Source: Saksenaea vasiformis B4078
Lineage: Eukaryota; Mucoromycota; Mucoromycetes; Mucorales; Saksenaeaceae
Assembly: GCA_000697055.1 (NCBI GenBank)
Contig: JNDT01002363.1
Location: forward strand, 1 to 64,000
Reading direction: 5' to 3'
Length of the DNA stretch: 64,000 bases
The notes beneath the pieces were generated by a model. The model was not told the origin of the DNA and did not search any database. It worked only from the letters and a program-made list of their open reading frames with translations. This document shows positions 42,300 through 62,467 of the stretch, in pieces. The position numbers and the translations under genes are program-made. The number at the start of each line of letters is the position of its first letter. The stretch's first letter is position 1.

Positions 42300-43041
42300 G
42301 CAAATGGAGTATCATATCGAAAAAGGTGGAAACGCCTCCCGCAGCAAGGAATTCTGATCCAGTCATAGCATTGTGAAAGGAAAGCTAAACAGCGGGAGAA
42401 AATACAGATGAGATCTCACGAAGAATTGCATCTTTACTTGATGTGCCTGGATTCAGCTTGCATACTTATAGAAATTTTAGCGGTTCTTTGGAAGCCATAT
42501 CAGCGAAAGGCACTGTACCCAGCTGGAAACGGAGTTAACAACTGATAGGGAAGTTACAATCACTGCAGTATATGGTGCCATATCTGAGGCAGAGGTAATA
42601 GATATATCTTTGAGAAAGCCTCAGGCTACATCTGTGTCCAGAAAGAGAAAGCTTAACAAAAAAAAAGGCAAAAACAGTTCATGATCGGGTCGGTACACGA
42701 CTGAACACTTCCTGCCTTTTATATCTAATGTAATGGACGTGCTGGATGAACACGATAAGAAATCCCATTACATCGTAAGGGACAATGATCCAATACACAG
42801 GCCAGCAGCTATGCGCGAGGTGGTTGAGCGCAGACGTTATAAATATCCTTATTTACTACCATATTCCCTTTTTCTAAATCCTATTGAAGAGTCTTGGCCA
42901 AAGGTAAAAGCAGGTATCAGGAGAAATACTCTAGAAGCCGATGACAGACTTACAGATCGAACTTGTGAATTGGCAAATAAGGTAACTAGATCCGATTTTC
43001 AAGCCTGGGGTCGGCATGCTATGACTTTTTTTACGCTATAA
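42300..43041 (+). pseudogene. Decayed IS630/Tc1-mariner-like DDE transposase
   Basis: The C-terminal third is open (42733-43041, MDVLDEHDKKSHYIV...) with the DDE-superfamily signature: the second catalytic Asp region VRDNDPIHRP and the third-acid block LLPYSLFLNPIEESWPKVKAG, where E of NPIEE is the final catalytic residue. Upstream, pieces of the same protein can be traced in broken frames at about 42530-42650 (GAISEAEVIDISLRKPQA and RKRKLN), with stops and indels. The normal N-D-x-P-I-H reads DNDPIHRP, so Ala at the usual DNAPIH position is replaced by Asp. The enzyme cannot be made from this copy. Confidence 0.7.
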
Positions 43042-44436: not shown

Positions 44437-47119
44437 TTGGGATTATTGAAATACACCTGTTTAGTTACCAGCAAGGACTGTGGTGCTGCTGGCCATGCTA
44501 ATAAGCGGTTTAAGATCTGTCCCTTAAACACCAGACACGGCAAGGCGCCCGGTAAGCATACAAGGTACAGCTACTTGAAATTTCTCATCAACTCCTTTCT
44601 CTTTATAAGCTGCTTTCAAGCGAAAGCTTACCTTGACCAAACAAGCTGAGACATCGAAGGCAAAGAAACGCGGAAGATATCAGAAAGCTGAAGAAGCAAC
44701 AAATATAAGCGCTTCAGGAAAACCATGTTCGACCTGTGGTGGTACCGACCATACCCGATCGTCGTCTAAACGATGCCCCATGCATAAAGCATCGAAAAGG
44801 GACATCATTGCAGACCGGCTTGCCCAAAAAAATTATGAAACGTTCACACGCAAGCTACCCTTTTCATCTGTCGTACGCTCAGAGCACGAAGAAGCACTAC
44901 GCACGAAAATCATACGGTTGTCAAAATTTTTGCGCGAAGTAATCTTTCGTGCCCAATTACTCGTAAATTCGTATATAATCGCTAATTCCGATCGCGCAAT
45001 GCCTTCATACGTATATACGCAGAACTTCTGGTATTCCGTTAGTCAGCTGGTAATGGGAATCAACATCAGCAATAACAACAGTAACTTCCCACGCGAGATG
45101 TACGGGCATTGGGAGAATCTCTTAGCTCGTCATCCAACTGCTGTGTATCACGTTGGTGATTTTACGGGATACAGTGGTAGTCTATCGGCAGCGTGTGTCA
45201 CATTAGCATCCACGTATTCCAACAACGTAGTCGAGAACTTCGAAAGCCGAATGAAATTTTATATATCACGAAGGCTGATCAGCCTTCTACCAGTAAGATT
45301 CAAAGTCGCGAGGTACTACTGATTTATTTTGCTAATGTAGAATTTGTACAAGAGTCAAGCTAAAGCAATCGCCGGAGATTATGTATACGAACGCTTAGTT
45401 AAGGGTGATCCATACTGGCCATTTCCTGATAAGCCAATGGACTCTGAAGTTGAATCCGTCGTGGAGACCATATGTTGCGAATTTACAGGATTAATGCCGG
45501 TAGAACCAACTACTGCAGAACGACTCTCTGCACGCCCTGGAGAGTACGTGCCGGTACTGGCTTATATCCTTAGAACGCACGAAGACGAACATGAGAAGGC
45601 AGGAAAAGAGTGCAAAGATTCGCCTCGTTTGTTCTCTTTATCACCATCACCATCTACGCATTGGCAATTTGTGTCAATCAATTGCAACGTTCTTACCGTC
45701 TTAACAGGCGTTCCACGTGGACGTGATTACGATGCTCAGCTTGCTCAGTTCCATCAAGTGTTTAACTTTTCCAAGCTCGGCTATAAGACGTAAGCAAGCG
45801 CTCATTAGATAACTGTCTGATGCCATTTTCCTGTAGCTTTGAACAACTGAAAAACTCGGCGAACGAGAGCGGTACAGCATTTAAGGCTGCTGTTCTGAGT
45901 GATGGATATAGCGTTGATATACAGTTTGCTCGAGCTCGGAAACCGGAAGCTGCAATCATCGACACGAGCCTTTCAGTTGACGATCTGACTATGGAGAATG
46001 TATATGACCATTTCACACCATGCGCCATAGATCCTGGTATTAATCAGGCTTTTACTGCTGCGTACGGCCAAAACAACGAGCGTCATGAAATAAGGCGATG
46101 TTCTACGAACGAGTATTATTCGTATACGGGTTCACCGAACAGAGATATACAGATGCAAGTAGAAAAGAAAGAACAAGGAGTCGAAGAGATTGAGAGCTCT
46201 CTGGAATCCGGAAAGACGTCTGACGTCGATTCATATAACCGCTATCTGGAGTGCATTTTTCTTCATATGAATACCTTATTCGATTTCTACGTCCGGGAAG
46301 AGCAATGGCAAGGTTCCACGGCTATCAAGGGGTGCAAAGAGCAAGAGAAGAGATGGTTAACATTCTGGTATCTGGAGGCAAAAAGTACAATCGTAGAAAA
46401 CGAAAGCGCACAAGATCAAATAGGAGAACACGCAAAAAAGGTCGCAAACGTCGTAAAGACGCACGGAGTAAGAAAAGCACGGCCGATGATAAATCATTAG
46501 CTCATTGGCAAGTACTTTTAATTATACCAATTTACTACCAACAGTAACTAATGAATTGCTAACAGTGTTCCTCGACCAAACACTTCTTCCGAACGAAGCA
46601 CGCTCAGGAGAAAGGGATGCTTTCATCAATGGAGGCCCGCAAATTTCACGAATGAGGGGAAGAAGACACCTTTGATTGTATTCGGCGACGGGATGTTCAA
46701 TAACAGATGTAACTACAAGGGACATCGCAAAGGTGTGGTCAATATCCTATGGAGAAGTTTGAAGAGAAGGGAAAGACGCGGAGAGTTACTAGTTGTAACA
46801 ATTGACGAGTACCTCTCCTCGCAGGTCAGTACTATGACGCTGGCGACATCGATATGCTCAAATGTATGTTTAGATCTTTCATAATTGCTGAAACAGATCG
46901 CTTCAGAAAGTTGTAACCAGCGATCACATCTCCCACCACAGCATCTTGGAATGCAAAACCTGTAAGACGTTGTGGAATCGGGATGTGATGGCAAGCAAGA
47001 ACCTATTTCGGATTGCTGAATCGATCTGGAGGGGCCAAGCCAGACAAGCCGAATTTGCCAGGTCTTCAAGGGACAATATCGCCGGTACGAATGCGGTTCC
47101 CTCCACCGGGAAGGTTTAG
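44437..47119 (+). pseudogene. Fanzor (eukaryotic TnpB-like RuvC nuclease), copy 1, disabled
   Basis: Exon pieces: an N-terminal part from about 44633 to 45292, 45343-45790, 45832 to about 46510, about 46566-46824, 46874-47119. The catalytic set of the TnpB/Fanzor RuvC domain is traceable: RuvC-I Asp in AIDPGINQAF (codon 46030), RuvC-II Glu in TIDEYLSSQ (46807), RuvC-III Asp in NRDVMASKN (46982). The N-terminus has a zinc motif CX2CX4HX7CX2H (CSTCGGTDH...CPMH). It is broken. A single-base loss near 46291 shifts the frame before the basic block VNILVSGGKKY. In the zinc finger after RuvC-II the first Cys reads Phe (46877) and TGA follows at 46889. No ATG begins the first long exon. The 49-nt intron 46825-46873 matches the position and length of that in copy 2. 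The second zinc half ECKTCKTLW is intact. Confidence 0.8.
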
Positions 47120-47800
47120 ATTTTTACGGTAAGCTTGTCGTTACATATATAAAATTGAAATCAATTTTACTGATTGATCCTTTAGGTGCTCACACCGGTA
47201 AGTTCTTCTTCGGATCATCAAACAAGTTGCTAAATAATGAATGTTTGCTACGCTTAAAATGGTTTCTTGCGTCGTCAATCGAGAATTGTGTATATCGATT
47301 CTCAGGACGCAAAAAATCATTTTAGGCAACGCAAAACGTTCTACAACAAACAGTACTCCATGTAATACGCGCATTGCGGAACGAATTTTGCGCCAGTGAC
47401 CAGAGACTTTTGCGTTGTTTCGATCTGAATGCCCATGACCACATGAAGGCTGATGGCTCTCCATTGAATATAAATGATGTCATCTCATTGGTTGTTGATA
47501 TGTCTGACAATGATACACAAAACGAGTGGGCAGAACTGTCTCATTCAAATCCATCTGGTTTTGACTGAAAGATAGCGGGGAAGGAGGTAGTCATGTAAAC
47601 GCCGACCTTATACGAATGCGTACATTGACAGAAGCCTCATTATTTGCTGACGATAACAGAGATGAAAGCCTAACTGGCTTTGTCCACTTTCCGAACAGGC
47701 CATGTGTATAGCATGAGCATGAAGCTAGAACGAGAGGTTCATATAGGGAATACGCCCCATAGCAAATCGAAAAACTGCCTGATTTGGTGATTAAAAAATG
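47120..47800. other. 3' flank of Fanzor copy 1 with a long stem-loop
   Basis: Directly after the stop, GATTTTTACGGTAAGCT resembles the DNA after copy 2 (TTTACGGTAAGCTC near 52715). AAAATGGTTTCTTGCGTC at 47256-47273 pairs with 47306-47323 (16 of 18 bp), leaving a 32-nt loop. In TnpB and Fanzor systems the guide RNA comes from the 3' end of the gene and the element end, so this is a candidate site for it, but no RNA is demonstrated. Confidence 0.35.
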
Positions 47801-47809
47801 ACGAAGCAA

Positions 47810-48200
47810 CGCTTACGACGAGTATAAATGTCCGAACGCTCCACGTTATATCAAAATGTACAACAGGGATGAAGAAGGATCTCTACCTGGCGTTCAGAGG
47901 AAGTCTCGTACTAGATATTATAGCGGGCTGAATGAAGCTCATTCCGAGTTTCTTGTAGATTACATTGACAGAAATCCCGCTGCTATCCTGATTGATATAA
48001 AAGGAGCTTATATGAGGCGTTTGAAGACTTAGTTATCTCAGAATCAACATTGAATAGGTATTTAGTCAATAAATGTTGTATAAACCTGAAAAGCTGGAAA
48101 AGCTTCTTGCGAAAAGAGAAAGCTGCAGAATGGGAAAAAGATGCAAGACTTGGAATTCACTAACGGTGGCACAGTTATACAGTAATCACTATCATGAACG
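47810..48200 (+). pseudogene. Fragment of a DDE transposase N-terminal (helix-turn-helix) region
   Basis: Broken frames carry a readable HTH-type segment typical of IS630/Tc1-like proteins: RTRYYSGLNEAHSEFLVDYI, then NPAAILIDIK, LVISESTLNRYLV and LRKEKAAEWEKDA. Stops interrupt it, and no catalytic part follows. Likely a relic of another element of the same superfamily as the one at 42300. Confidence 0.5.
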
Positions 48201-49499
48201 CCTATCACCAAGAAGAAAGTTCACTTAAATCTGAATTCTGAAAAGACTGAACAAATATAAATAGGCAGACAAATTCACAGTCTCGAGGGATTCTATCCGT
48301 TTCCCTTTTGCTTAACTCATTCAAGTGCCACACGTGGTACTGGATAAAATCATATCATTAAACAATGAAATAAATAATATATGTATAAGGTTGCTTTTGG
48401 TGGAGTTCATCGGCCAAATACCTAAGTTATTGTTCGACAGTAGCGCGGACACAGAGATTGTCCCATCCACCTTCTCTTCTGCTCGCCTCTCTCCTTCTCG
48501 ATGATAATAATTTAGTATAGTGTACCCTAGTAATTATTGTTTCTCTCGAGATAAATAAGGAAGATGGTAACGCAATCTCTGGATCCACCTCTCGAAGGAT
48601 GATCATCATCAAAGACTAGGTTTCATTTAATTGTATTTTTTCGTGACATAATACAGTGTCCTCTCCGTTAATTCAGTCCCCCGATACCAATGTTCTATTG
48701 TTTAGAAAAGTATGAAGTTATCAAAGACCGAGATCGGCTATCCAACCACTCTTTATGGAGATCCTTCCTCGGTTTGTGGAGATGATTCTTCAGGTTTCTC
48801 CGTGTAACAATGGAGATCTGCTATGTCCAATCCACAGATGAACCACAGTGAGCTTTCTCTTTATTTCGCCCCTCGCCTATTTACAGGGTTACACTGTTAC
48901 CAAGACCTTGGATTAAGAGGAGACACCGTAAAATGTGTATTCACAGCACCCTCACTAAGAATTGTACTATAACTATCGTAAAAGCGCAATTTGTCATATT
49001 TTTAAGGCGAGCGAGCGATGGAGACTGAATGGTGAGTATGATAGTATCTGCATAAAAGTGATAGCCAACTTGTTGTGTTGAGTAGATCTTTGTGTATCAG
49101 GCGTCAGTGGAACTGTCAAGCGTAAATAACGAAGAAGTGTAAGTGTTTCCAGGATCGCTTAAATGATTAGACATGTCCCATAGTATACTGAATGGAGGGT
49201 TGTGTAGCGATTTCATAGTGTTTGACAGCGGCGCTATTGCATTGTCTGCATTTGCGCAATTTCTTTCCTCCTCAACTGTATCAGCGAGCCAAGTTGTTAC
49301 CGACCAGCTTGATGAAGATCGAAGCTAGTTGATAATGGTTGACCTCGATGCCGTAAAAGACAAATAAGAGAAAAAAGGTCTCGTGTATCTTTATTGATTG
49401 ACTTTAATATTTATATCCAATGCTTGTGTTATTATGTCTATAACACAAGTTAAGAATTCCTTCTTCGACATACACTGGCCACTCTTCCTGCCTTTGAAG
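48201..49499. other. Intergenic within the transposon island, no gene recognised
   Basis: Short random frames only. AT-rich, with no terminal repeats found by eye. Confidence 0.4.
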
Positions 49500-49880
49500 T
49501 CACACGAGCAAATATTTTAAAAGTGCTCCTACTTGATGGACGGATTCTGTTGCGCATCCGCAAGCCATCCGTTTTTCTACATGAGCAGGAAACAAGGACT
49601 GGAATTCAAAGGATACTTGACTCAGGTCGTTAACTCCTGCCTTAAATGATGTGTTCTCCCACAGGAAACGACTGAAAGCATCTGAGTAGTTGAATCTGAG
49701 GCTTTGATTGTTCTCACGGTAACGAGAGATCTCATCCATCAATACTTTGTTAAATACAATGGTCTCCTCTAAATACGCTGAAACATTGCCAATTGAAGGC
49801 AAAATTGAACACAACAGCATGTCAAATGGTGCGTCGATGTAAAGGATATCCGTGAATTTGGACTGAGGGATATTACGTAC
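49500..49880 (-). CDS. Unrecognised reading frame, probable fragment
   Basis: Open on the minus strand for about 126 codons (from a stop near 49880 to 49500). The texture is protein-like (FTDILYIDAPFDMLLCSILP, then FSRFLWENTSFKAG, VEKRMACGCATESVHQVG). The first internal ATG is at 49820. No family is recognised. Its place between two Fanzor copies suggests a transposon passenger or a relic, but nothing in the sequence proves it. Confidence 0.3.
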   Translation of the reverse strand, partial: VRNIPQSKFTDILYIDAPFDMLLCSILPSIGNVSAYLEETIVFNKVLMDEISRYRENNQSLRFNYSDAFSRFLWENTSFKAGVNDLSQVSFEFQSLFPAHVEKRMACGCATESVHQVGALLKYLLV

Positions 49881-50204
49881 AAATCACAATTTCCAAGTGC
49901 ATATGGCCTCTCATGGGTTCATCCGTCATATTCATGGAAGGCTGATCGCTGTTACAATCCCTGATCCTGGTGTTCAAGAACTATGAAGCAAATTCGTTCA
50001 ACTTATAAGTATCTATCGGATCGTACAACTTTTTATCTTTAACTCTACAAACGTGAGTTCTGGATATCTCTTCGTTAACGGATTTTAGCTTTTTAACCGC
50101 TGGAGCGGAGTACTGGGGGAGGAGGAAGGGGGGAGTACCGCGTCGCCGACAGCATGAAGAACAGAATGAGAGTGTAAAACGGTCTAAGAAACGTGGGCGA
50201 CAAG

Positions 50205-52637
50205 ATGCAGGCGAGCACAAGTAACACAAATTTCGTTCCAAAGCCATGTCCTGCTTGTAGTTCAACTACACATCGCAGCTCTAGATCGCGAGACTGTGCT
50301 GCGCATAGCAAGTCAACCCAAGAAATTCTGGAAGACCATCTTGAAAAGAAGATGAAGTTATTTACTCGGAAATGCACTGTGCACTCGGTTGTCCGAGAAG
50401 CGTATCGCGAAAGATTTTGTCAAACTACACGAGACCTTTCAGTATTTTCCAGAGAAGTCATTGCAAGGACGCAGTTATTCGTAAATCAGTACATCCTGGA
50501 TCATGAAGTGGTACCTGCGATTTGCTTTACACAGAACTTTTTTTATTCCGTTACGCAATTCGTACTTTCCAAACCAGTGACAACTACCAACGACAAGATG
50601 CCTGAAGACCTCAAGAGCGCATGGGAGGCGTTTAAAAACGAACACTCATCTTTGCAGGAAATTCCGCCTACAAGTCTCCGCTATTCTGATGTCCTAAGTG
50701 AAGCATGTATCACACTCCCCACATGCTATGTGAACAACATAGTGGAGAATTTTGAAACAAGCACTGTATCTTTGTTCAGCACAAGCTTTCTGTATCATTC
50801 CACGTAAGTCTGGTATCTTGCTGTCATACTCCACCGGGACTAATATCTATCTATAGACTCTTACGAAGAAAGACGCAATGGCTATTGCATCTAGCTATGC
50901 TTTCGAACGAATTGGTGGAGGGTCTCCCAGCTGGCTGGATTCTGTCGAGGTATCCTTACCTTTGGTGGCTATCATGGACAGTATTTGTGAGGAACTTGAA
51001 GAACTCACGCCCAAACCTGCAACATCTCAGACCATATCCGCATCTTCTTGTTCGTATTTACCTGTGTTGAAACGCATCTTGGAATCTTATGAAGAGGAGC
51101 ATCGCATAGCCGGAATTTCACAAGAGGCGTCAGATGATAGCTCTTTGGAATCTTACGAGGATGATCATTGCATAACCGGAAATTCAGAAAGAGCGTCAGA
51201 CGATACCTCTCTTCCAAGGCGTTTCGCGATTTCACCGAGGCCCACAACCGGATGGAGGTTTATCTCTATCAATGCAGAACTTCTAGCTAGCCTATTGCCT
51301 GTGAGTAGGCCGAAGAAACCTAGCGACTACCCTAAAACGTTCTTTGATGCCCTTGATTTCTCCTGTCTTAGAATTAACAGGTATGAAGCACAAAGGCTTA
51401 CCTTTCTACAAAATATTCACTTTGTTATATACTTGCATTTAGCTGGGAATCATTTACCGAGGATCCAGACTGCAAGTTCGCTTGCAAGATTCTCACGGAT
51501 GGATACACAGTTAGTTTACTATTTGCAAGAAGGGCAAGAGTAGATGTGGCGAGCACTGCGCTGGACTTGGAAGATTTCAGCATTGACGAGGTCAAGCATA
51601 ATTTTGAGCCGTGGGCTCTTGATCCGGGGCGTAATCAATTCTTTACAGCCGTAGATGGAAGTGGCTCCGGGTCGCATCAGATACGACGGGTCTCCAATAA
51701 GGAATACTACGCAATGACTGGTTCGGGGAGAAGGGCAAAGAAAATACAAAAAGAAAAAGGTGCACAAGGAATTACCGAGATAGAAACAAATTTGCTTACG
51801 AGCAAAACGGCTTCCTCCGACTGTCACCATGAATTTGTGGCATGTTTCCTTGAAAACTTCCCGGCATTAACCGCTTTCTACGGCCCTCGAATGGCGGAGA
51901 CACGGTTTAGAAACTACCAAGGCACGCAACGAGCTCCAGAAGAACTGGTGAATATACTTATCAATGGAGGCAAGAAGTATTGTAAGGGAAGGAGAAAAAA
52001 GACGAGGCACAACCGGAAGAAAAGAAAAAGGCGAGCTTGTAAACGCAAGGAAAAGCAAAGATTGCGGTGGCGCTCTGGGTAATTAATATTATACATACAT
52101 AGGTGTAGATATTGATGAAAGCCTTTCACTTCAGCCCAAGGGAATCGACAACGAGATTCACTGTCAACAAACCCCATCCACATACAAGAAAATGGAATCC
52201 GTCTTCTTTTCAAACAACCAACAAAATTCCCCTTATAGTCTTTGGATCGGCCATGTTTGGCGCGAGTGGGCATGCCACACGGAAAGGAAAAAAAGCAGCC
52301 GTGGTCAACAAATTATGGAAAACGCTTAAAAGAAGAGAGCGTCGTGGCGAGCTGGCCGCCGTGACCATAGACGAATTCTACACATCTCAAGCTGGTTCGG
52401 TTCATTTTATGTCCGTGCTTATTGAAATAGTATCTCTAGGTTTGCAGCGCTTGTATGACAAGAGACTTGAGCAAGGTAACAACAGCCGATCGCATCTCCC
52501 ACCATGGTATTGCAGTATGCAACAACTGCCATACACTTTGGCAAAGGGACGTCAACTCGGCCAAGTCCATGTATCATATTGCCGACTCGGTCTGGCGTGG
52601 GCTCAGACGCCCAGCGGAATTTTGTCGACCTGAATAA
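50205..52637 (+). CDS. Fanzor (eukaryotic TnpB-like RNA-guided nuclease family), copy 2, nearly intact
   Basis: Five-exon reading of 724 residues: 50205-50765, 50857-51380, 51443-52078, 52135-52390, 52440-52637. RuvC-I Asp is in ALDPGRNQFFTAVDG (codon 51621), RuvC-II Glu in VTIDEFYTSQ (52373), RuvC-III Asp in WQRDVNSAKSM (52548). Between II and III stands a complete two-part zinc finger, VCSACM and VCNNCHTLW. Order and spacing are those of TnpB/Fanzor, whose members are guided by an RNA from the element's 3' end. A basic block (GGKKYCKGRRKKTR...) and an N-terminal CX2CX4HX7CX2H motif occur as in copy 1. Doubts: the last intron (52391-52439) needs a GC donor (CAA|GCTGGT). The first uses GTATCT at 50766 because the better donor at 50804 would need a 1-base frameshift. 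A basic KKRGR segment upstream of 50205 lies in another frame. Confidence 0.8.
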
Positions 52638-54017
52638 TTCATCCCGAGATCGCCACTACGAATGTGGTTTGTTGTGTTGCTTTCCGGCAACAAACATTTA
52701 GATATTTACGTTTACGGTAAGCTCAACACGACTTTAGTACATTCTTCTGAACGTTTCGCCTCCCGTATTGTCCAACTATAACTTGCTATATACGTCAATT
52801 GGGTAAGTGATCATTCTTTATTCAAAGAAAACTGGATTCACACCGTTTCTCCGTATCTCTTACTTCCAGGACGCCAAACTTGCTCTATTGGTTCACGCAA
52901 AATTATTTCTGACCTGGCGTATATTGTTTTGAAAAATCCAGTAATACGCGCATAAAATTTGGTTCAAGACTAACGTTGTAACTGTTTGAATGTTGTAACT
53001 GTTTGGAGGATCAGCTTGTACAATTAGTTGTATACACTATTAGATATTTATGCAACAGAGAAGGTTGCTGTCGATATTAAAGTGAGAAGACGTCAAGAAC
53101 TTAGCAAGTCAGGTCTCTGCCAACTATCTGGGAACGGGGTCGGCAATTCATATCACTTCCAAGAACAACGAGAAGACGGATTGGAAGAGCGCATTGGAAA
53201 GCACGTATATTCGTGTTTGGAATGGATAGCGTAATCTTAGGCAGCTAATGAAGAGCCCCATTTGCCCATAAACTGTGGATTGATACAGCAGTGACTGAGA
53301 AAAGCTATTGAAGTTTCAAACAACCAACATGAGATACGTACTGTCAACAAACACAAAACCGGAAGATGCACGTTCAACTCTTTAGCAACAAATAGGTTTG
53401 TTCCTTCAATGTCTTCAGCGAATAATAGATCATGGAAGATTGCAGTTTTTGTCTGTGATCCGTGCGGGAATAGATCCTTCACCGGGATGAAAGTGTTACC
53501 CACGATACCGCAACCATCGCGGCCTCGATGCTAGCAAAATAAAGGCGCCCCATCTCATCTCATTCAGATATCATAATAGGTTGGGACACGTCATGCGTTT
53601 CGGTAGCTTTTCTCTGAAAATCTTAAATCAACTTACAGGTAATGCAAGTGCTTGTCTTTATCGGTTCTTTCCTAGTGTGAAACCCATCTCTTCACAGGTG
53701 GAAATTTATTTATAGCAGAGCGACAAAGTACTTGATAAACAATATGCAAGTTGTAATACAATGTCAGTTGCAGGCATTGCTTCAACTCAGCAAGTGTCCA
53801 ATACTTGCATGATAATTTTGTAGTCTCATCACTTTGTCGACTAAAACTATTACTCACCACGCACGATCCGGTCGTCGGATTAGTATTGACTTTTTATTCT
53901 CTTCTCGTTTAAGTCAAGGAGGTCTAGGGACGCTTAAAGTCTCGCGTTGGTAATGAAAGAAGAAAAAAGAGCAAGTGACGTAGGATGCATGTAACTCGAG
54001 CGAGAATTTCGGGGTGA
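52638..54017. other. 3' flank of Fanzor copy 2 and intergenic DNA
   Basis: The first 100 bp keep similarity to the flank of copy 1 (TACGAATGTGGTT, then TTTACGGTAAGCTC) and could contain the element's guide-RNA region and right end. Terminal repeats were not found by eye. Frames at 53028-53234 (plus), 53237-53503 and 53672-53860 (minus) are short and unrecognised. The last 130 bp should hold the promoter of the Sec7-domain gene. Confidence 0.4.
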
Positions 54018-57000
54018 ATGGGAAACCAGTGTGTTCCAACTCAGCTTTTCCCCCTTCTTCATACCATTATGAGCAATGAAGATCCGCATTCTCGTCATCC
54101 CGCGTTCGACTTGCGTAAAACCATTTCACTTCGACGTTCGGGAAACATGAAGATGGCTGGTGAAAACGAACCCAAACGATCGCTTGATGACTATGTTTCA
54201 AGCAACAAAGACGTACAGGCTGCTTTTAACCAGTTAACAAGGAATAGAAGTAGCCGAGCTGGTGGATCAGAGGCTAGTCATTCTGCGTTTGAGGGGCAGC
54301 ATGGGGTCCCGCATGCAGCAATAAATTCAGGCAGCAACAATTCATTCACACAGCGGCTTATTGATCGAGGCATAGCTGTGCCTTCCTCTATATCTCACTG
54401 GAAATCCGCTGCGTCTTCAAGCGATCCCATTCTCTCTTCTTCTACTGGATCTTATCTGTCCTCTTCAATGGGATCTTGCAATAACGACTTTGACTCAAGC
54501 GCTTACTATGGTTTGTCGCCATTCGTCACATCGTCGTCGTTCCTGATGACAAGCGAATCAACCGGTCACCTTGGTGCAGACATGGCACAAGGAGGGGTAC
54601 ATGGACGCCATGAGTCCTTAAGACACCGTTATGATAAAGAAACCGCCAATAGCACGCAGAGGGCATCTCAGAATAGTGAAGAAGAGGAGGAATATCACGT
54701 TATGTCATCACCCGAATTAGCAAAGTTACACCATCATCGCTCAAGAAGATCGCGACCAGACAGAGATGATAGTGATATTGAATTATCAGATGACGATCTG
54801 GAAGATCCTAGAAAGCAACACTCAACACCGAATCTACTTACGACAACGACACCGTTTCTATTACGAACGGCAACTGCACGACGACGGCATCACGATAGTG
54901 TCTCAAAAGCCCGTTCGCCTTCACCATTGGCGCGTACTTCTATGTCTACTGTCGAAGAAGCCGCGTCAGGCGAAGAGGAATTGGCAGAGAAAGGTGTTTC
55001 AAAACAATCTGCACCACGGCCAGGCATCTTTAACTTGCGAGATCCTGAGAGTTACGCAGACGTGTATCCCTTAAGAAGCACGAGTAAGGATGAAGAAAAG
55101 GGGAACGATATAGGAGGCGTCGGTGTTGCCCAGGAAGATGACCATGTGCAACAACACGCAGTGCTAGAGGCACGTACTACCGTTGATGCGTCGGATATAG
55201 ACGGTGGATCACGCGATCTTGCAGAAAATTATAAAAAGGCACCTGATACTCCAGAATCAGATCCACGGGAGGCCCCACCTCAGCTTTCCGCATCGATCAA
55301 CAAACTGAAAGAGATGCTTACCTCAAAGCGGCCGTCTTCCGCCAAACTTAGCGCCCTACTATCGCCAACAAGTGACTCTCACGATGCTCTCCAACGATTG
55401 GATTCGCAGGCTGCAAAAAAGCCATTTACAACACTACCACCCCCACCGCCACTTCGCGAACCACCTCGGAAACATTTGCTACAGACACCAGTATTTCAAG
55501 TAGTCAATGCCAATACCGTTAAAGATCGATACCTTTTTTTATTCAGCGACCTTCTGCTGATCTGTAAACCAATTATGGACGAAAATATTATTGTCGGAGG
55601 AAGTGTCACAAATAACCGGGAGAACAGCAGGTACCGTTTCAGGCCAAATGAAGACAGCCTGTTTCAAGTCAAGAACATTGTTGAACTTAGCAAGGTCACA
55701 TTGTATATTTCTCGTGAAGACCAGCAACAGCAGCAGTTGCAACATAGACCGTCTATCATCGTCAGTCCTGATGCTCAGTCAGTATTACCTGCTCCACGCA
55801 AGATGCATCCAGTGTTAGCATCGGCGCTACGCAAGTTTGAAACGAGTGCAGAGAACGGAATTGCTTATCTGATTGATAAACAAGTTCTCACGAACGATCC
55901 CTTAAGCATAGCGAACTTTTTATTCAAAACTCCCGACTTGAATCGGCGACAGTTAGGTCACTATCTTACAGATCCGAAAAACAGCGATGTGTATCATGCC
56001 TTCTTGGACTGCTTCCGACTCGTGGGTTTCCGACTTGACGAAGCATTGCGTATTCTACTTACGACTTTCCGATTACCTAGTAATTGGGAAGCTTTAGAGT
56101 ATCTGATTGAACGATTTGCAAAGAAGTGGCATGATGCAAACCAGAACGTTGTTAAGTTCCATGAAGACATGGTCGTCAAAGTTATTGTGGCAATGCTTTT
56201 CTTGAACGCTGAAGTCTGGTACGATGCGAACAGCGAAAGAGATGTATTCTGGTGGGCTCGTGAAAGGAAGGAACGAAGGGACAGACAACGGATGACGCGT
56301 CGGGGAAGCATGGACCGGAAGAGTCACCGCGAGAGCGTGGCTGTTGAACCTCTGCATTATATCACAGCATTACGAGCAGAGGGGAGGACGCAATCGTCAA
56401 TGTCAGATTTCTGGGATAGATGGACTCATTTCGATCAATATGCACTAGTACCGCGCGAATTCATGGAAGATATGTATCGATCTATCATGGCGGAACGTCT
56501 TGAAACGGGATGGGACAATAAACCAGGTCGCGCATCACCGGTGCAAGACAACGCTGCAGAAAATTCAGATCAATCGGAACAGGATGTAGTTATTACAGTG
56601 ACACCTCACCGGTTACCTACACGACTTACGAAGGGCGTTCCCTCTGCACCGATTACGATTTCCATTCCAGCTCCTGATTCAGGATTGCAGATTAAATTAC
56701 GTGGACAGGACCTAACGTGCGAACCAAACGTACTCGACTTTTCATTGTCATGTGTCCAGACGTTCACTATCACGGGACATACGTTGGGACGGACAAGTTT
56801 GATGTTTATCAAATCCGGAGAACATGCGGGTCACTATGTGAGTCCGACATTGCCGCGTACGAAGAGTATTGTGGTGGAACGTCCATTTATGCGATATACT
56901 TTCCAAATCGGCTTTAGCCATACAGATATGCGTGCTGTCAAAGCGGCGGCGGCAGCAGCAATGACAAGTGGAAAGAGTGCGAGTGGAGGAAGTGCAGTAG

Positions 57001-57662
57001 ATCGTAGCAGCAATTCGGTGAAAAGTCCGACTGACATGCCCTCTCCAGTGATGATGACAAATGGAGATATCGGTGCCCAAGCGGAAGCAGAGGAGTCTAG
57101 TGGCGTTATCGGACAACGAGAGCAACCAGCAATGGTAAGACGAAAATACACATTCAGCGTTGAGACAGAGAACGAGCGGCATGAATGGATCAGTCGCCTC
57201 AGAAGTTTAAGCGGCAATGTCTGTATTGGAACGGATACGACGAAGGAAAAACCGGTGAAAGCAAACAAGGACTATTCGTCGGCGGAGGAACGTGTAGCGC
57301 TCCAAGTATTGAAAGAAGTGCTACTGGCAGATGAGGTGAAAAAGGGGACAGCAAACGTGGCAGCATTACGGTCGACCATTCTGGGAAGTCGCTCAAGCGT
57401 ATTCGACCCGCATCAAAAACCTACAATCGGTTTAACGCCATCTTCAAAGAATATGGATGATCCTGGTCAAGATGATAGTAGCGTCGGGGACAAGAAGAAG
57501 GCTGAAGAAAACAAAGGGGGTGATCGGGCTTCACTCATGCCTGTGCCAGCAGGGACAACTAATGTAGTTACGAAACGAGGACATGAGATCATCAAACTCG
57601 TCGTTCAGAATTCCATGGTTCCCCTTATGCTCGGATTTCTTCGAAATCAAATACCGGAGTGA
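54018..57662 (+). CDS. Sec7-domain protein with PH-like regions (putative Arf GEF, divergent)
   Basis: Uninterrupted frame of 1214 codons. Residues 1-480 are Ser/Pro/Asp-rich and probably disordered. A PH-like strand set (VKDRYLFLFSDLLLICKP, about 500-520) precedes the Sec7 domain (about 600-760): KFETSAENGIAYLIDKQVLT, IANFLFKTPDLNRRQLGHYL, HAFLDCFRLVGFRLDEALR, ILLTTFRLPSNWEAL, VKVIVAMLFLNAEVW. A further PH-like region with long insertions lies about 850-1060, ending FSVETENERHEWISRLRSL. Sec7 proteins load GTP on Arf G proteins at membranes. Here the family motif FRLPGEAQ, whose Glu is the catalytic finger, reads FRLPSNWE, and LNTDLHN reads LNAEVWYD, so exchange activity is doubtful. The ATG at 54069 (MSNEDPHSRH) is an alternative start. 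Confidence 0.82.
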   Translation: MGNQCVPTQLFPLLHTIMSNEDPHSRHPAFDLRKTISLRRSGNMKMAGENEPKRSLDDYVSSNKDVQAAFNQLTRNRSSRAGGSEASHSAFEGQHGVPHAAINSGSNNSFTQRLIDRGIAVPSSISHWKSAASSSDPILSSSTGSYLSSSMGSCNNDFDSSAYYGLSPFVTSSSFLMTSESTGHLGADMAQGGVHGRHESLRHRYDKETANSTQRASQNSEEEEEYHVMSSPELAKLHHHRSRRSRPDRDDSDIELSDDDLEDPRKQHSTPNLLTTTTPFLLRTATARRRHHDSVSKARSPSPLARTSMSTVEEAASGEEELAEKGVSKQSAPRPGIFNLRDPESYADVYPLRSTSKDEEKGNDIGGVGVAQEDDHVQQHAVLEARTTVDASDIDGGSRDLAENYKKAPDTPESDPREAPPQLSASINKLKEMLTSKRPSSAKLSALLSPTSDSHDALQRLDSQAAKKPFTTLPPPPPLREPPRKHLLQTPVFQVVNANTVKDRYLFLFSDLLLICKPIMDENIIVGGSVTNNRENSRYRFRPNEDSLFQVKNIVELSKVTLYISREDQQQQQLQHRPSIIVSPDAQSVLPAPRKMHPVLASALRKFETSAENGIAYLIDKQVLTNDPLSIANFLFKTPDLNRRQLGHYLTDPKNSDVYHAFLDCFRLVGFRLDEALRILLTTFRLPSNWEALEYLIERFAKKWHDANQNVVKFHEDMVVKVIVAMLFLNAEVWYDANSERDVFWWARERKERRDRQRMTRRGSMDRKSHRESVAVEPLHYITALRAEGRTQSSMSDFWDRWTHFDQYALVPREFMEDMYRSIMAERLETGWDNKPGRASPVQDNAAENSDQSEQDVVITVTPHRLPTRLTKGVPSAPITISIPAPDSGLQIKLRGQDLTCEPNVLDFSLSCVQTFTITGHTLGRTSLMFIKSGEHAGHYVSPTLPRTKSIVVERPFMRYTFQIGFSHTDMRAVKAAAAAAMTSGKSASGGSAVDRSSNSVKSPTDMPSPVMMTNGDIGAQAEAEESSGVIGQREQPAMVRRKYTFSVETENERHEWISRLRSLSGNVCIGTDTTKEKPVKANKDYSSAEERVALQVLKEVLLADEVKKGTANVAALRSTILGSRSSVFDPHQKPTIGLTPSSKNMDDPGQDDSSVGDKKKAEENKGGDRASLMPVPAGTTNVVTKRGHEIIKLVVQNSMVPLMLGFLRNQIPE

Positions 57663-59999: not shown

Positions 60000-60560
60000 G
60001 CTAAATAGAAAAATAATTTTTTGATAAATAGTAATTTTAAATTATTAGATTCTTTTATTATTTTTTTAATATAATCTTTTATTTTTATTATAATTTTTTA
60101 TTATAATTTTTTTAATTATAAGTTTTTTTTTAATTGTAATTTTATTACTTTATTATAGTTTTATTTCTTAATTATAGCTTTTTTTTAATTGCAATTTTTT
60201 TTATAATGGTAGCTTTTTTCTTAATTATAACTCTTTTTTTTTAATTACAGTTTTTTTTTTAATTGTAACTTATTCTTATAATTGTAGTTTTTTTTTTAAT
60301 TGTAGCTTTTCTTTTTGATTGCAGTTTTTTTTCTTAATTATAATGTCTCATTAATGTAGAATAAAAAGAGATCAATAGATTTAGTGAGACTAGTTGTGAA
60401 ATTTGATTAATTGAAAGATGAATAATAATGGTATAAGTGTAGTTTTGTATAAGAGAGAAAAAAAAGAAAAAGAAAAGAAAAGAAAAGAAAAAAAAAATAT
60501 GTCATTCGGTGTAAACCTTCCATTTTTCTTTTTTTATACATAGTTATTTTTATTTTATTT
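60000..60560. repeat. AT-rich low-complexity tract
   Basis: A long run of T-blocks separated by AATTATAG- or AATTGTAG-like pieces (for example 60160-60345, recurring roughly every 25-35 bp), followed by GAAAA repeats near 60455-60500. No coding capacity. Confidence 0.8.
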
Positions 60561-60964
60561 TATATTGGATGGAGATTAATAAATGGAGATGAGAAAATAT
60601 ATTGTTATGCATAGAAAACGGCATAGTAAAAGACATATAGACACTTCAAAGGACCTGCCGCCATTTCTATTGCAACCCTGCTGATCACATGTCCATCCAT
60701 TGTTCCTGATGATGTAGGATCCCATTTTTTTATTATTTTATTTATTTTTTTTGCTTATTTTAGTTTTTTTTTCTTTTGTTATCTTTTTATTTTGTTATTT
60801 TTTTTATTTCTATTTATTTTTATCTTGAAACTACCAGTATTAAATAAATGGGGATGAAGAAAAATGATGGAGAAAAAGAATGAAGAATACTAAGATACAG
60901 CAACCGCCGCTTCAGATTAAAAACCTCCAAATCACATGGTTTATACCTTCCACATTTGTGCTGC

Positions 60965-61491: not shown

Positions 61492-62467
61492 TGTAACACA
61501 ACTTTGAAGTCCTCTAGGTTCTTATCATTAGGCTCATGGAATCTTATACAAACCGACATCCACTCTGACAACGGCACATGGCCTCTGGTATCACTCCCAA
61601 CAAGACCCCCAAACCTTATCCAAAGGCACATCTACTCAAAACCGCATACAATCGAAACCGCATATGATCCAAAGTACATACGATCCAAGATGCATATGAT
61701 CCAAGATGCATACGATCCAAAGTGCATACGATCCAAAGTGCATATGATCCAAAGTGCATACGATTGAACCAATTACCTGCCGTCATTATCCATTCGAGCC
61801 ATGATAGACTAGATGATCATCCACTTAGCAAAATTATTTTCTATCGATCTATTTTGTATAAATACCCCTCCAATTCAATGAATAAAACATTAGGTTATAA
61901 TAGCATATTCTTCTCTTGGTTATCTCAAGCCATCTCAAAAGGTCTTTTCCAAAGGTTCTTCTCTTATTTCTCAAACCGCCTTTTATTGCTCGCCTCCGTT
62001 GGTTATTCCCACCGTTAACCCGAATCCATTGATTCCTTTTCTTTTATTTTCTTTTTATTTTACTCTCTGTCTGACAAGCGACGACAATTCCGCTGTCCTC
62101 TTTTTATTTCTCTTTTTATCTTTGACGAAACTCTTTGACGAAACTCTTTGCTGATTCAAGGTAACCATATCAGCGATCTTACTAACGGACATATTTTATT
62201 TTATCCAGATCTCCTTGGATATTGTCAGTACCGACAACAGTTACTCTATTCAAACCTTTCTTTTTCTTTCTTCAAGCTTTACCGCTTAACCAAGTCTTGG
62301 TGTTCGACTTAAATCTACACCTGGTGCTCACTCAATTCTGAACCTTTCTATCAACGAACATTACTCAACTGATACCCTTAACAACAATCACCGTCATCCA
62401 GCTTACGCTACGACAACACTTGGAACAACACTACCCATATACAGTAACCGAAAAATACAGCGTAACA
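61492..62467 (+). repeat. LTR copy A of the 2194-3335 family
   Basis: Runs TGTAACA...CGTAACA and matches the reverse complement of 2194-3335 for most of its length. Shared: TACAAACCGACATCCACTC, an array of GCATACGATCCAAAGT units at about 61637-61760, TATAAATACCC at 61857 with AATGAATAAAAC after it, and the terminal CAGCGTAACA. A perfect 11-bp inverted repeat (61484-61494 / 61498-61508) sits over its left boundary. No internal gag-pol region follows. Confidence 0.65.

Follow-up and report, generated by a model that had tools for sequence, protein, structure and literature searches.

A Fanzor1 gene on a DNA transposon of Saksenaea vasiformis, and a candidate omegaRNA scaffold whose last hairpin may be completed by splicing in related clades

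The window analysed here, a stretch of 64,000 nucleotides of Saksenaea vasiformis B4078 (contig C628 in a genome of 38.7 Mb and 666 contigs), contains a spliced gene that a preliminary description had assigned to the TnpB-like Fanzor family. This raises the question of whether the gene encodes a working RNA-guided nuclease and where its guide RNA might come from. We consider it highly likely that this gene (50205-52637, hereafter the reported gene) is a Fanzor1 that resides on a DNA transposon some 5.6 kb long, with the segment at 52650-52720 as its omegaRNA scaffold, and that this copy was probably inactivated recently. The preliminary description had mentioned neither the structured RNA downstream of the gene nor the second Fanzor of the window nor the ends of the element. 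Coordinates of the features are collected in Table 1.

Table 1. Features of the two Fanzor elements in the window
Feature	Position	Strand	Basis or remark
Element 1 Fanzor gene, broken	44609-47119	+	open reading frames; stop TAG 47117-47119
Element 1 scaffold up to 5' splice site	47079-47128	+	overlaps end of reading frame
57-nt GT-AG intron in last hairpin of element 1 scaffold	47129-47185	+	18 other loci, same position
12-nt micro-exon, completes element 1 hairpin after predicted splicing	47186-47197	+	sequence comparison
Element 1 right-end segment, last letters CAGTA	47306-47355	+	sequence comparison
Left 13-bp direct repeat, candidate target-site duplication	47362-47374		identical to 52941-52953
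Element 2, transposable element with the reported gene	47375-52943	+	right end by comparison; left end less certain
Open frame	47802-48032	+	no Pfam match
Exon 1, first reading	50205-50765	+	relatives run on to 50803
Intron 1 of relatives, GTAAGT...TAG	50804-50856	+	used by 5/5 relatives
Exon 2	50857-51380	+	spliced reading
Exon 3, TDG motif and RuvC-I DPG	51443-52078	+	spliced reading, motif positions
Exon 4, TIDEFYTSQ	52135-52390	+	spliced reading
Last coding intron, GC donor; GT in 6/6 relatives	52391-52439	+	alignment to relatives
Exon 5, zinc finger and RuvC-III, up to stop	52440-52637	+	spliced reading
Candidate omegaRNA scaffold, 12 nt behind stop codon	52650-52720	+	covariation, covariance model
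SL1 of module	52653-52656 pairing 52664-52667	+	structure coordinates
SL2 of module	from 52670, 3' arm 52687-52696	+	structure coordinates
SL3 of module	52706-52720	+	UUACG-UUUA-C(G)GUAA
Stretch with intron-like letters (GTAAGT...TTCCAG), behind the scaffold and ahead of the right end	52803-52869	+	splice-site letters only
Right-end segment, last exon if 52803-52869 is a real intron	52870-52943	+	sequence comparison
Right 13-bp direct repeat	52941-52953		first three letters overlap terminal CAGTA

Translation of the exons gives a product of 724 residues followed by a stop, from the ATG at 50205 to a stop codon ending at 52637 on the forward strand; start, stop and exons are as the preliminary description had them. 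The RuvC-I, RuvC-II, zinc finger and RuvC-III motifs that it named are likewise borne out. Residue 422 is the first of DPG and residue 654 the glutamate of TIDEFYTSQ; the CX2C pairs lie at 661 and 686, and RD is found at 695. A TDG motif, which PMC10711439 gives for the WED domain of Fanzor1, lies at residue 380; relative C582 has SDG instead. The published Fanzor/TnpB motif pattern, D-X(125,275)-[TS][TS]XX-[C4 zinc finger]-X(5,50)-RD (Bao and Jurka, PMC3627910), is found in the form D-234 residues-TSQV-C4-5 residues-RD. The fingerprint of Fanzors given in PMC10711439, a RuvC-I DPG and a glutamate six residues ahead of the zinc finger, is also present, and the spacings differ from those of the search pattern in that paper (229 residues versus 120-160, and 21 versus 12-18).

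The preliminary description had proposed a profile search as a check on the family, and this search returned a match. The spliced protein scores 33.8 bits against PF07282 (TNB; cut-off 26.3, E 3.7e-8), and exon 5 alone scores 18.1 bits, below that cut-off. A profile built from two sequences, the reported protein and C582, gave five matches in the PDB at E values up to 1; the top two were both Fanzor1 proteins, GtFz1 (E 2.5e-4) and SpuFz1 (E 3.1e-3), and PpFz1 was not among the five. With the reported protein as a single query, the PDB search reached only E 0.045. The NCBIfam model NF040570 (guided_TnpB), which was made for prokaryotic TnpB, gave 24.1 bits against a cut-off of 100, and none of 7989 candidates from a large protein database scored with the 724-residue query had E <= 1. 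Within the genome, 137 PF07282 matches (E <= 0.001) were found among the 150 scored of 388 candidates, and 133 stretches match the reported protein, the window's own included. Since one genome holds so many of both, the reading is not a chance one. Assignment of the reported gene by its sequence to the Fanzors, and to Fanzor1 in particular, is thus well supported. Taken alone, the reported gene adds no new kind: it is one slightly damaged Fanzor1 among the many of this genome. Two of the best PF07282 matches (L002 and L004) are Fanzor/TnpB-like genes of a different kind, with the motif LDRDLNGARNI and without the RNA module described below.

The right end of element 2 was placed by comparison with C569b and with subfamilies A-D at a terminal CAGTA (52939-52943); the alignment of the window copy to C569b stops at ...CCAGTA. 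Among 18 copies of subfamilies A-D, 11 end in CAGTA, five in a one-letter variant of it and two diverge earlier, and beyond the CAGTA or variant ends the flanks are unlike one another. The left end was set by adjacency to a 13-bp direct repeat. Eight copies were tested for such a duplication, and this repeat alone was a convincing candidate; C651 and C184 have uncertain right ends, and C582 and C436 gave 9-mers, that of C436 lying off the right end. A left copy of the right-end terminus was not found: a 35-mer of it had 10 matches within 3 mismatches, all 10 at right ends. The open frame near the left end (47802-48032) appears to resemble the N-terminal part of a Tc1/mariner-type transposase. 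Of 87 candidate matches in the genome to the region around it (47340-48120), 40 were scored, and 39 of these lie at other places. When the Tc1/mariner hallmarks of terminal inverted repeats and a TA duplication are considered, the right ends read CAGTA or CTGTA, but element 2 has a 13-bp repeat. Judged from these comparisons, the reported gene sits in a eukaryotic DNA transposon.

Between the left end and the gene, the stretch 49690-49948 is 78% identical to C492 sequence upstream of the Fanzor of that copy. A 127-codon open frame without a Pfam match overlaps it on the reverse strand (49500-49883). In other copies a small frame (HALIWSMFMLSLTAYSA...) lies upstream of the Fanzor gene (L025, about 1100-1282; L072, about 1559-1733; and L073); C582, C354 and C577 have it in common, with a DNA identity of about 69%, and it is either a separate small gene or a 5' exon.

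A second Fanzor, that of element 1, lies about 5.6 kb upstream on the same strand, and element 1 ends 20 bp before element 2. Its gene is broken, in that the RuvC-I part and the stretch behind it are in different frames (the frame change was judged by eye). A similar arrangement of two Fanzor elements in tandem on one strand is seen at C459:1-6200 (L074, L035, L070). Upstream of the element 1 Fanzor, a Tc1/mariner-like frame at 42685-43041 (+) matches the DDE_3 transposase domain (E 5.6e-11) and is possibly part of element 1; no firm tie was obtained. Both Fanzors of the window carry a zinc-knuckle-like CX2C...H...C stretch at the N-terminus (residues 13-34 of the reported protein; 44609-45322 in element 1), and that of element 1 matches PF15288 at E 0.011. 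These N-termini may provide an extra nucleic-acid-binding part.

Conservation continues behind the stop codon of the reported gene. A DNA search with 52560-52800 found 23 places including the window, and 18 of the 23 alignments stop at 52724-52727. The module so delimited varies in length between copies, from 70 to 80 nt. In 16 distinct copies, 93.5% of cells are paired in a structure that RNAalifold predicted from the same 16-copy alignment, versus 84.8 +/- 1.2 in shuffles (0 of 500 reaching the observed value) and 34-50% in slid controls. Both sides have changed at 10 of the 14 pairs, and two helices of the module covary. The inner pair of SL3 is G-C in the reported gene and A-U in L096, L101 and L111 (by eye); SL3 is partly broken in C569b, C533 and C631. 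Folding of six single sequences lends weak support (z of -0.12, -1.74, -1.02, -3.36, -2.95 and -1.32), and the minimum-energy fold of the L029 type differs from the module structure.

A covariance model run over 23 sources found the module behind both Fanzors of the window, behind the training copy L074 and behind 13 of 13 further family loci. Six of these 13 are nearly identical to C459_1, another training copy; among the remaining seven, L026, L028, L029, L031 and L032 are mutual near-copies, and L020 and L034 are similar. The window segment behind the reported gene, itself a training sequence, scores 98.5 bits. No further module was detected in the 64-kb window, and none at the eight loci with the best PF07282 matches of the genome (L001-L008, other clades). 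Of 22 further short stretches, nine match at E up to 5, the weakest at 0.053, and the rest look like other Fanzor clades. An Rfam search of the window found only a tRNA. From its structure and position, we regard the module as a candidate omegaRNA scaffold of the reported gene. Several places appear to hold a scaffold and right end without a Fanzor gene (L114-L117, C533:129490-129623 and C632:74450-74548), like the ghost loci of Spizellomyces.

In clade 2, the clade of element 1, the module breaks off at ...TACG (TACA in L090) and continues with GTAAGC, GTTAGT, GTAAGT or GTACGT. The intron that opens with these letters is 49-59 nt long and closes with AG; behind it stand a 12-nt micro-exon (11 nt in L090 and L091) and GTAAGT or a variant. 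In L026 the letters after the micro-exon are changed. A GT-AG intron inside the last hairpin is present at 19 of the 20 clade 2 loci (element 1, 11 further loci and 7 of C459 type), a count from which L034 was dropped as it is rearranged behind the donor. L106 lacks exactly the intron, and the hairpin is contiguous there. When SL3 is assembled from the predicted spliced sequences of eight distinct types (L026, L090 and L091 stand outside this count), 64 of 64 expected pairs form, versus 17-44% on sliding by one or two positions. One pair position, within the micro-exon, varies between G-C, G-U and A-U, whereas pairs spanning the junction do not vary within this clade. Most types have loops of their own. 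Four of the eight SL3 pairs draw on the GTAA that follows the micro-exon, and a second splicing event would take these letters away. The predicted fold of the unspliced element 1 RNA lacks SL3.

Clade 3 comprises six copies behind more distant Fanzors (L099, L102, L103, L104, L105 and L107) together with L113-L117; several of these 11 copies are near-identical. Here the scaffold ends TTACAG and is followed by GTAAGCC...TTTTGTCAG, four letters and CTGTA, from where the copies diverge. A search with the 3' region of L102 gave 39 other matches, of which 25 end at 172-176, position 172 being the last base of CTGTA, and this places the right end of the clade 3 element at CTGTA. The other 14 end earlier, mostly at 121-137; one of them, L107, still has the terminal CTGTA. 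Among the 11 copies, TACAG is kept in 10, CTGTA in 11, the GNRA loop in 10 and the donor GT in nine. After splicing, the clade 3 RNA would finish UACAG-N4-CUGUA and then run into flanking DNA. By analogy, this is what should be expected of a TnpB-type guide RNA, except for the intron in the last hairpin. The same split hairpin may occur in two more clades, represented by L109 and L100 (by eye; L109 also appeared in the scan of junction stems described below).

We lean towards the view that in several Fanzor1 clades the omegaRNA gene is split by a spliceosomal intron in its last hairpin, that the last exon of clade 3 consists of the 9-nt 3' side of that hairpin and a guide taken from flanking DNA, and that a working guide RNA would form only after the host spliceosome joins scaffold to guide. 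It is also conceivable, though we think it unlikely, that the matching arms (TACAG...CTGTA in clade 3, TTAC...GTAA in clade 2) are inverted repeats acting at the DNA level, for example as transposase sites, and that the intron letters are coincidental. CTGTA does form the extreme terminus of the element, the place at which a transposase binds, and the donor GT has been lost in two of the 11 clade 3 copies (L116 and L117). A general scan for stems across donor and acceptor pairs in 99 candidate introns was moreover not significant (six observed; control means 2.1 and 2.9, maxima 7), so the case for split hairpins rests on the conserved clades and on the intronless L106. Against coincidence, however, the arms lie flush against GT and AG, a pyrimidine tract is present, and the loop that splicing would create is GNRA in all but one clade 3 copy. 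The clade 2 intron, with its near-constant presence and its exact absence from a locus with a contiguous hairpin, is also difficult to accommodate as a DNA-level repeat.

In the most likely mode of action, a transcript would start at the Fanzor gene, pass through the module and the right end and continue into host DNA, and the Fanzor protein would bind the module, take the RNA behind it as guide and cut matching DNA; in a working copy, such guided cutting would favour persistence of the element. For clade 3, splicing would bring the flank into direct contact with the terminal hairpin. For clade 2, it would complete SL3, leaving further element sequence, partly intron-like, before the right end. 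SL3 is not split in the clade to which the reported gene belongs, and there scaffold and right end are about 220 nt apart, with the stretch between them similar in related copies. Here the guide may be internal, or removal of the intron-like stretch at 52803-52869 may move the right-end segment nearer. An internal guide would lie directly behind SL3 and be inherited with the element rather than derived from the flank. The distance of the scaffold from the element end and the similarity of the following stretch between copies would suit this, but when up to 3 mismatches are allowed, the 23 letters that follow the scaffold match only the window and two family copies in the genome, and no fixed target outside the family was found; we consider an inherited internal guide improbable. 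The stretch behind the scaffold was likewise rejected as a guide with a fixed target, for want of a match outside the family.

The structure of the coding region is shared with relatives, and intron 2 is normal and conserved in all seven aligned. Two splice sites that the preliminary description had singled out as unusual are both non-ancestral by comparison with relatives. The donor equivalent to 50804 is used in all five aligned relatives (C492, C552, C571, C459 and C582, which hold two mutually close pairs). The window copy retains GTAAGT at 50804 and is 1 nt shorter than all five in exon 1, just upstream of this donor. Since the relatives splice there, the donor at 50766 appears to be a way round the length difference, at a cost of about 13 residues. 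The donor of the last coding intron (52391) is GC in the window copy versus GT in the six relatives compared.

Ratios of dN/dS between the reported gene and C492, C552, C569a, C569b and C60 range from 0.17 to 0.35, and the lineage is under purifying selection; for C571, C459, C582 and C485 synonymous sites are saturated and no ratio was obtained. Three pairs of near-identical family copies gave 0.40, 0.62 and 0.73, as expected of decaying copies. Relative C582 has a stop in frame, the second C459 copy has lost the frame in exon 3, and exon 3 of C485 is one base shorter than that of C582. No undamaged copy was found among the few relatives examined, and errors in the draft assembly may contribute.

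The preliminary description had left it that this copy might still make a guided nuclease or might be only recently dead. Because exon 1 is out of frame relative to all five relatives and the last coding donor has changed, the reported copy is probably recently dead. Use of the cryptic donor at 50766 together with GC-AG splicing could still yield the 724-residue protein, with the frame kept and the catalytic residues present; given the uniform donors of the relatives and the residues lost, we think it quite improbable that this copy still works.

It is very improbable that the module, together with the introns that follow it, merely belongs to an ordinary 3' UTR of the Fanzor mRNA and serves stability, export or 3'-end formation. 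In clade 2 the module does overlap the last part of the reading frame, and the splice sites of the introns are ordinary ones, but two helices covary, size and position match known Fanzor1 omegaRNAs, C533 holds a module without a gene, as ghost loci do, and the clade 3 terminal hairpin finishes at the right end of the element. In the sections of the cited papers that describe them, known Fanzor1 omegaRNAs are 75-150 nt long (PMC11423790) and sit at or behind the stop codon (PMC10432273). It is likewise already known that fungi have Fanzor1 genes, that these occur in many copies and with ghost loci, and that an omegaRNA is encoded behind them (PMC3627910, PMC10432273).

SpuFz1 (Spizellomyces punctatus, PDB 8gkh) of the Spu-1 element, as presented in parts of PMC10432273, has the same motifs and conserved C-terminal end as the reported Fanzor. 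Spu-1 is also alike in its omegaRNA of about 75 nt and guide between stop codon and right end, its many copies and its ghost loci. However, one uninterrupted reading frame encodes SpuFz1, and its element measures 2.1 kb and carries inverted repeats of 30 nt, whereas the reported gene has five exons in a 5.6-kb element. Element 2 further differs in lacking recognisable inverted repeats and in the extra sequence between scaffold and right end. GtFz1 (Guillardia theta, PDB 9cer), the best PDB profile match, has an omegaRNA that overlaps the gene end, as in clade 2; unlike the reported Fanzor, it is a longer protein with a 150-nt omegaRNA, and no inverted repeats are described for it. PpFz1 (Parasitella parasitica) and the Rhizopus, Phycomyces and Mucor elements are similar in being early-diverging fungal Fanzor1 (excerpts of PMC3627910 and PMC11423790), and the PpFz1-type omegaRNA is likewise short with a small last stem, according to the relevant section of PMC11423790. 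The duplications given for the Rhizopus, Phycomyces and Mucor type in that part of PMC3627910 are 9 bp or 11-12 bp, compared with the 13-bp repeat of element 2. Prokaryotic TnpB (IS200/IS605, IS607) shares the order of RuvC and zinc-finger motifs and an reRNA/omegaRNA encoded behind the gene; the reported Fanzor differs in its DPG with shifted glutamate, its coding introns and its eukaryotic element.

In the passages of PMC3627910, PMC10432273, PMC10711439 and PMC11423790 that deal with omegaRNAs or reRNAs, the scaffold runs straight into the guide. Known omegaRNAs run into the flank; the reported gene's clade is unlike them, with about 220 nt separating its scaffold from the right end. The word "intron" is absent from the main text of these four papers. 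An intron-interrupted omegaRNA was not found in the literature searched on Fanzor and splicing, a search that lay outside preprint servers and most subscription journals. Within these bounds, what is new here, on sequence grounds, is a Fanzor transposon with a covarying scaffold module, a predicted scaffold intron in clade 2 and a predicted split terminal hairpin in clade 3. If the spliceosome does finish the scaffold, a mobile-element system of bacterial origin would now depend on a step found only in eukaryotes. A split omegaRNA would also be relevant to the question of how a single transcript can act as mRNA and as guide RNA. Searches for eukaryotic omegaRNAs would then need to be changed, because the unspliced sequence hides the last hairpin.

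Just downstream of element 2 lies a long open frame with Sec7 and PH-like domains (54018-57662, +). Farther along, the window contains an A+T-rich repeat tract (60050-60830) and a 16-bp tandem repeat of 7.6 copies (61644-61764).
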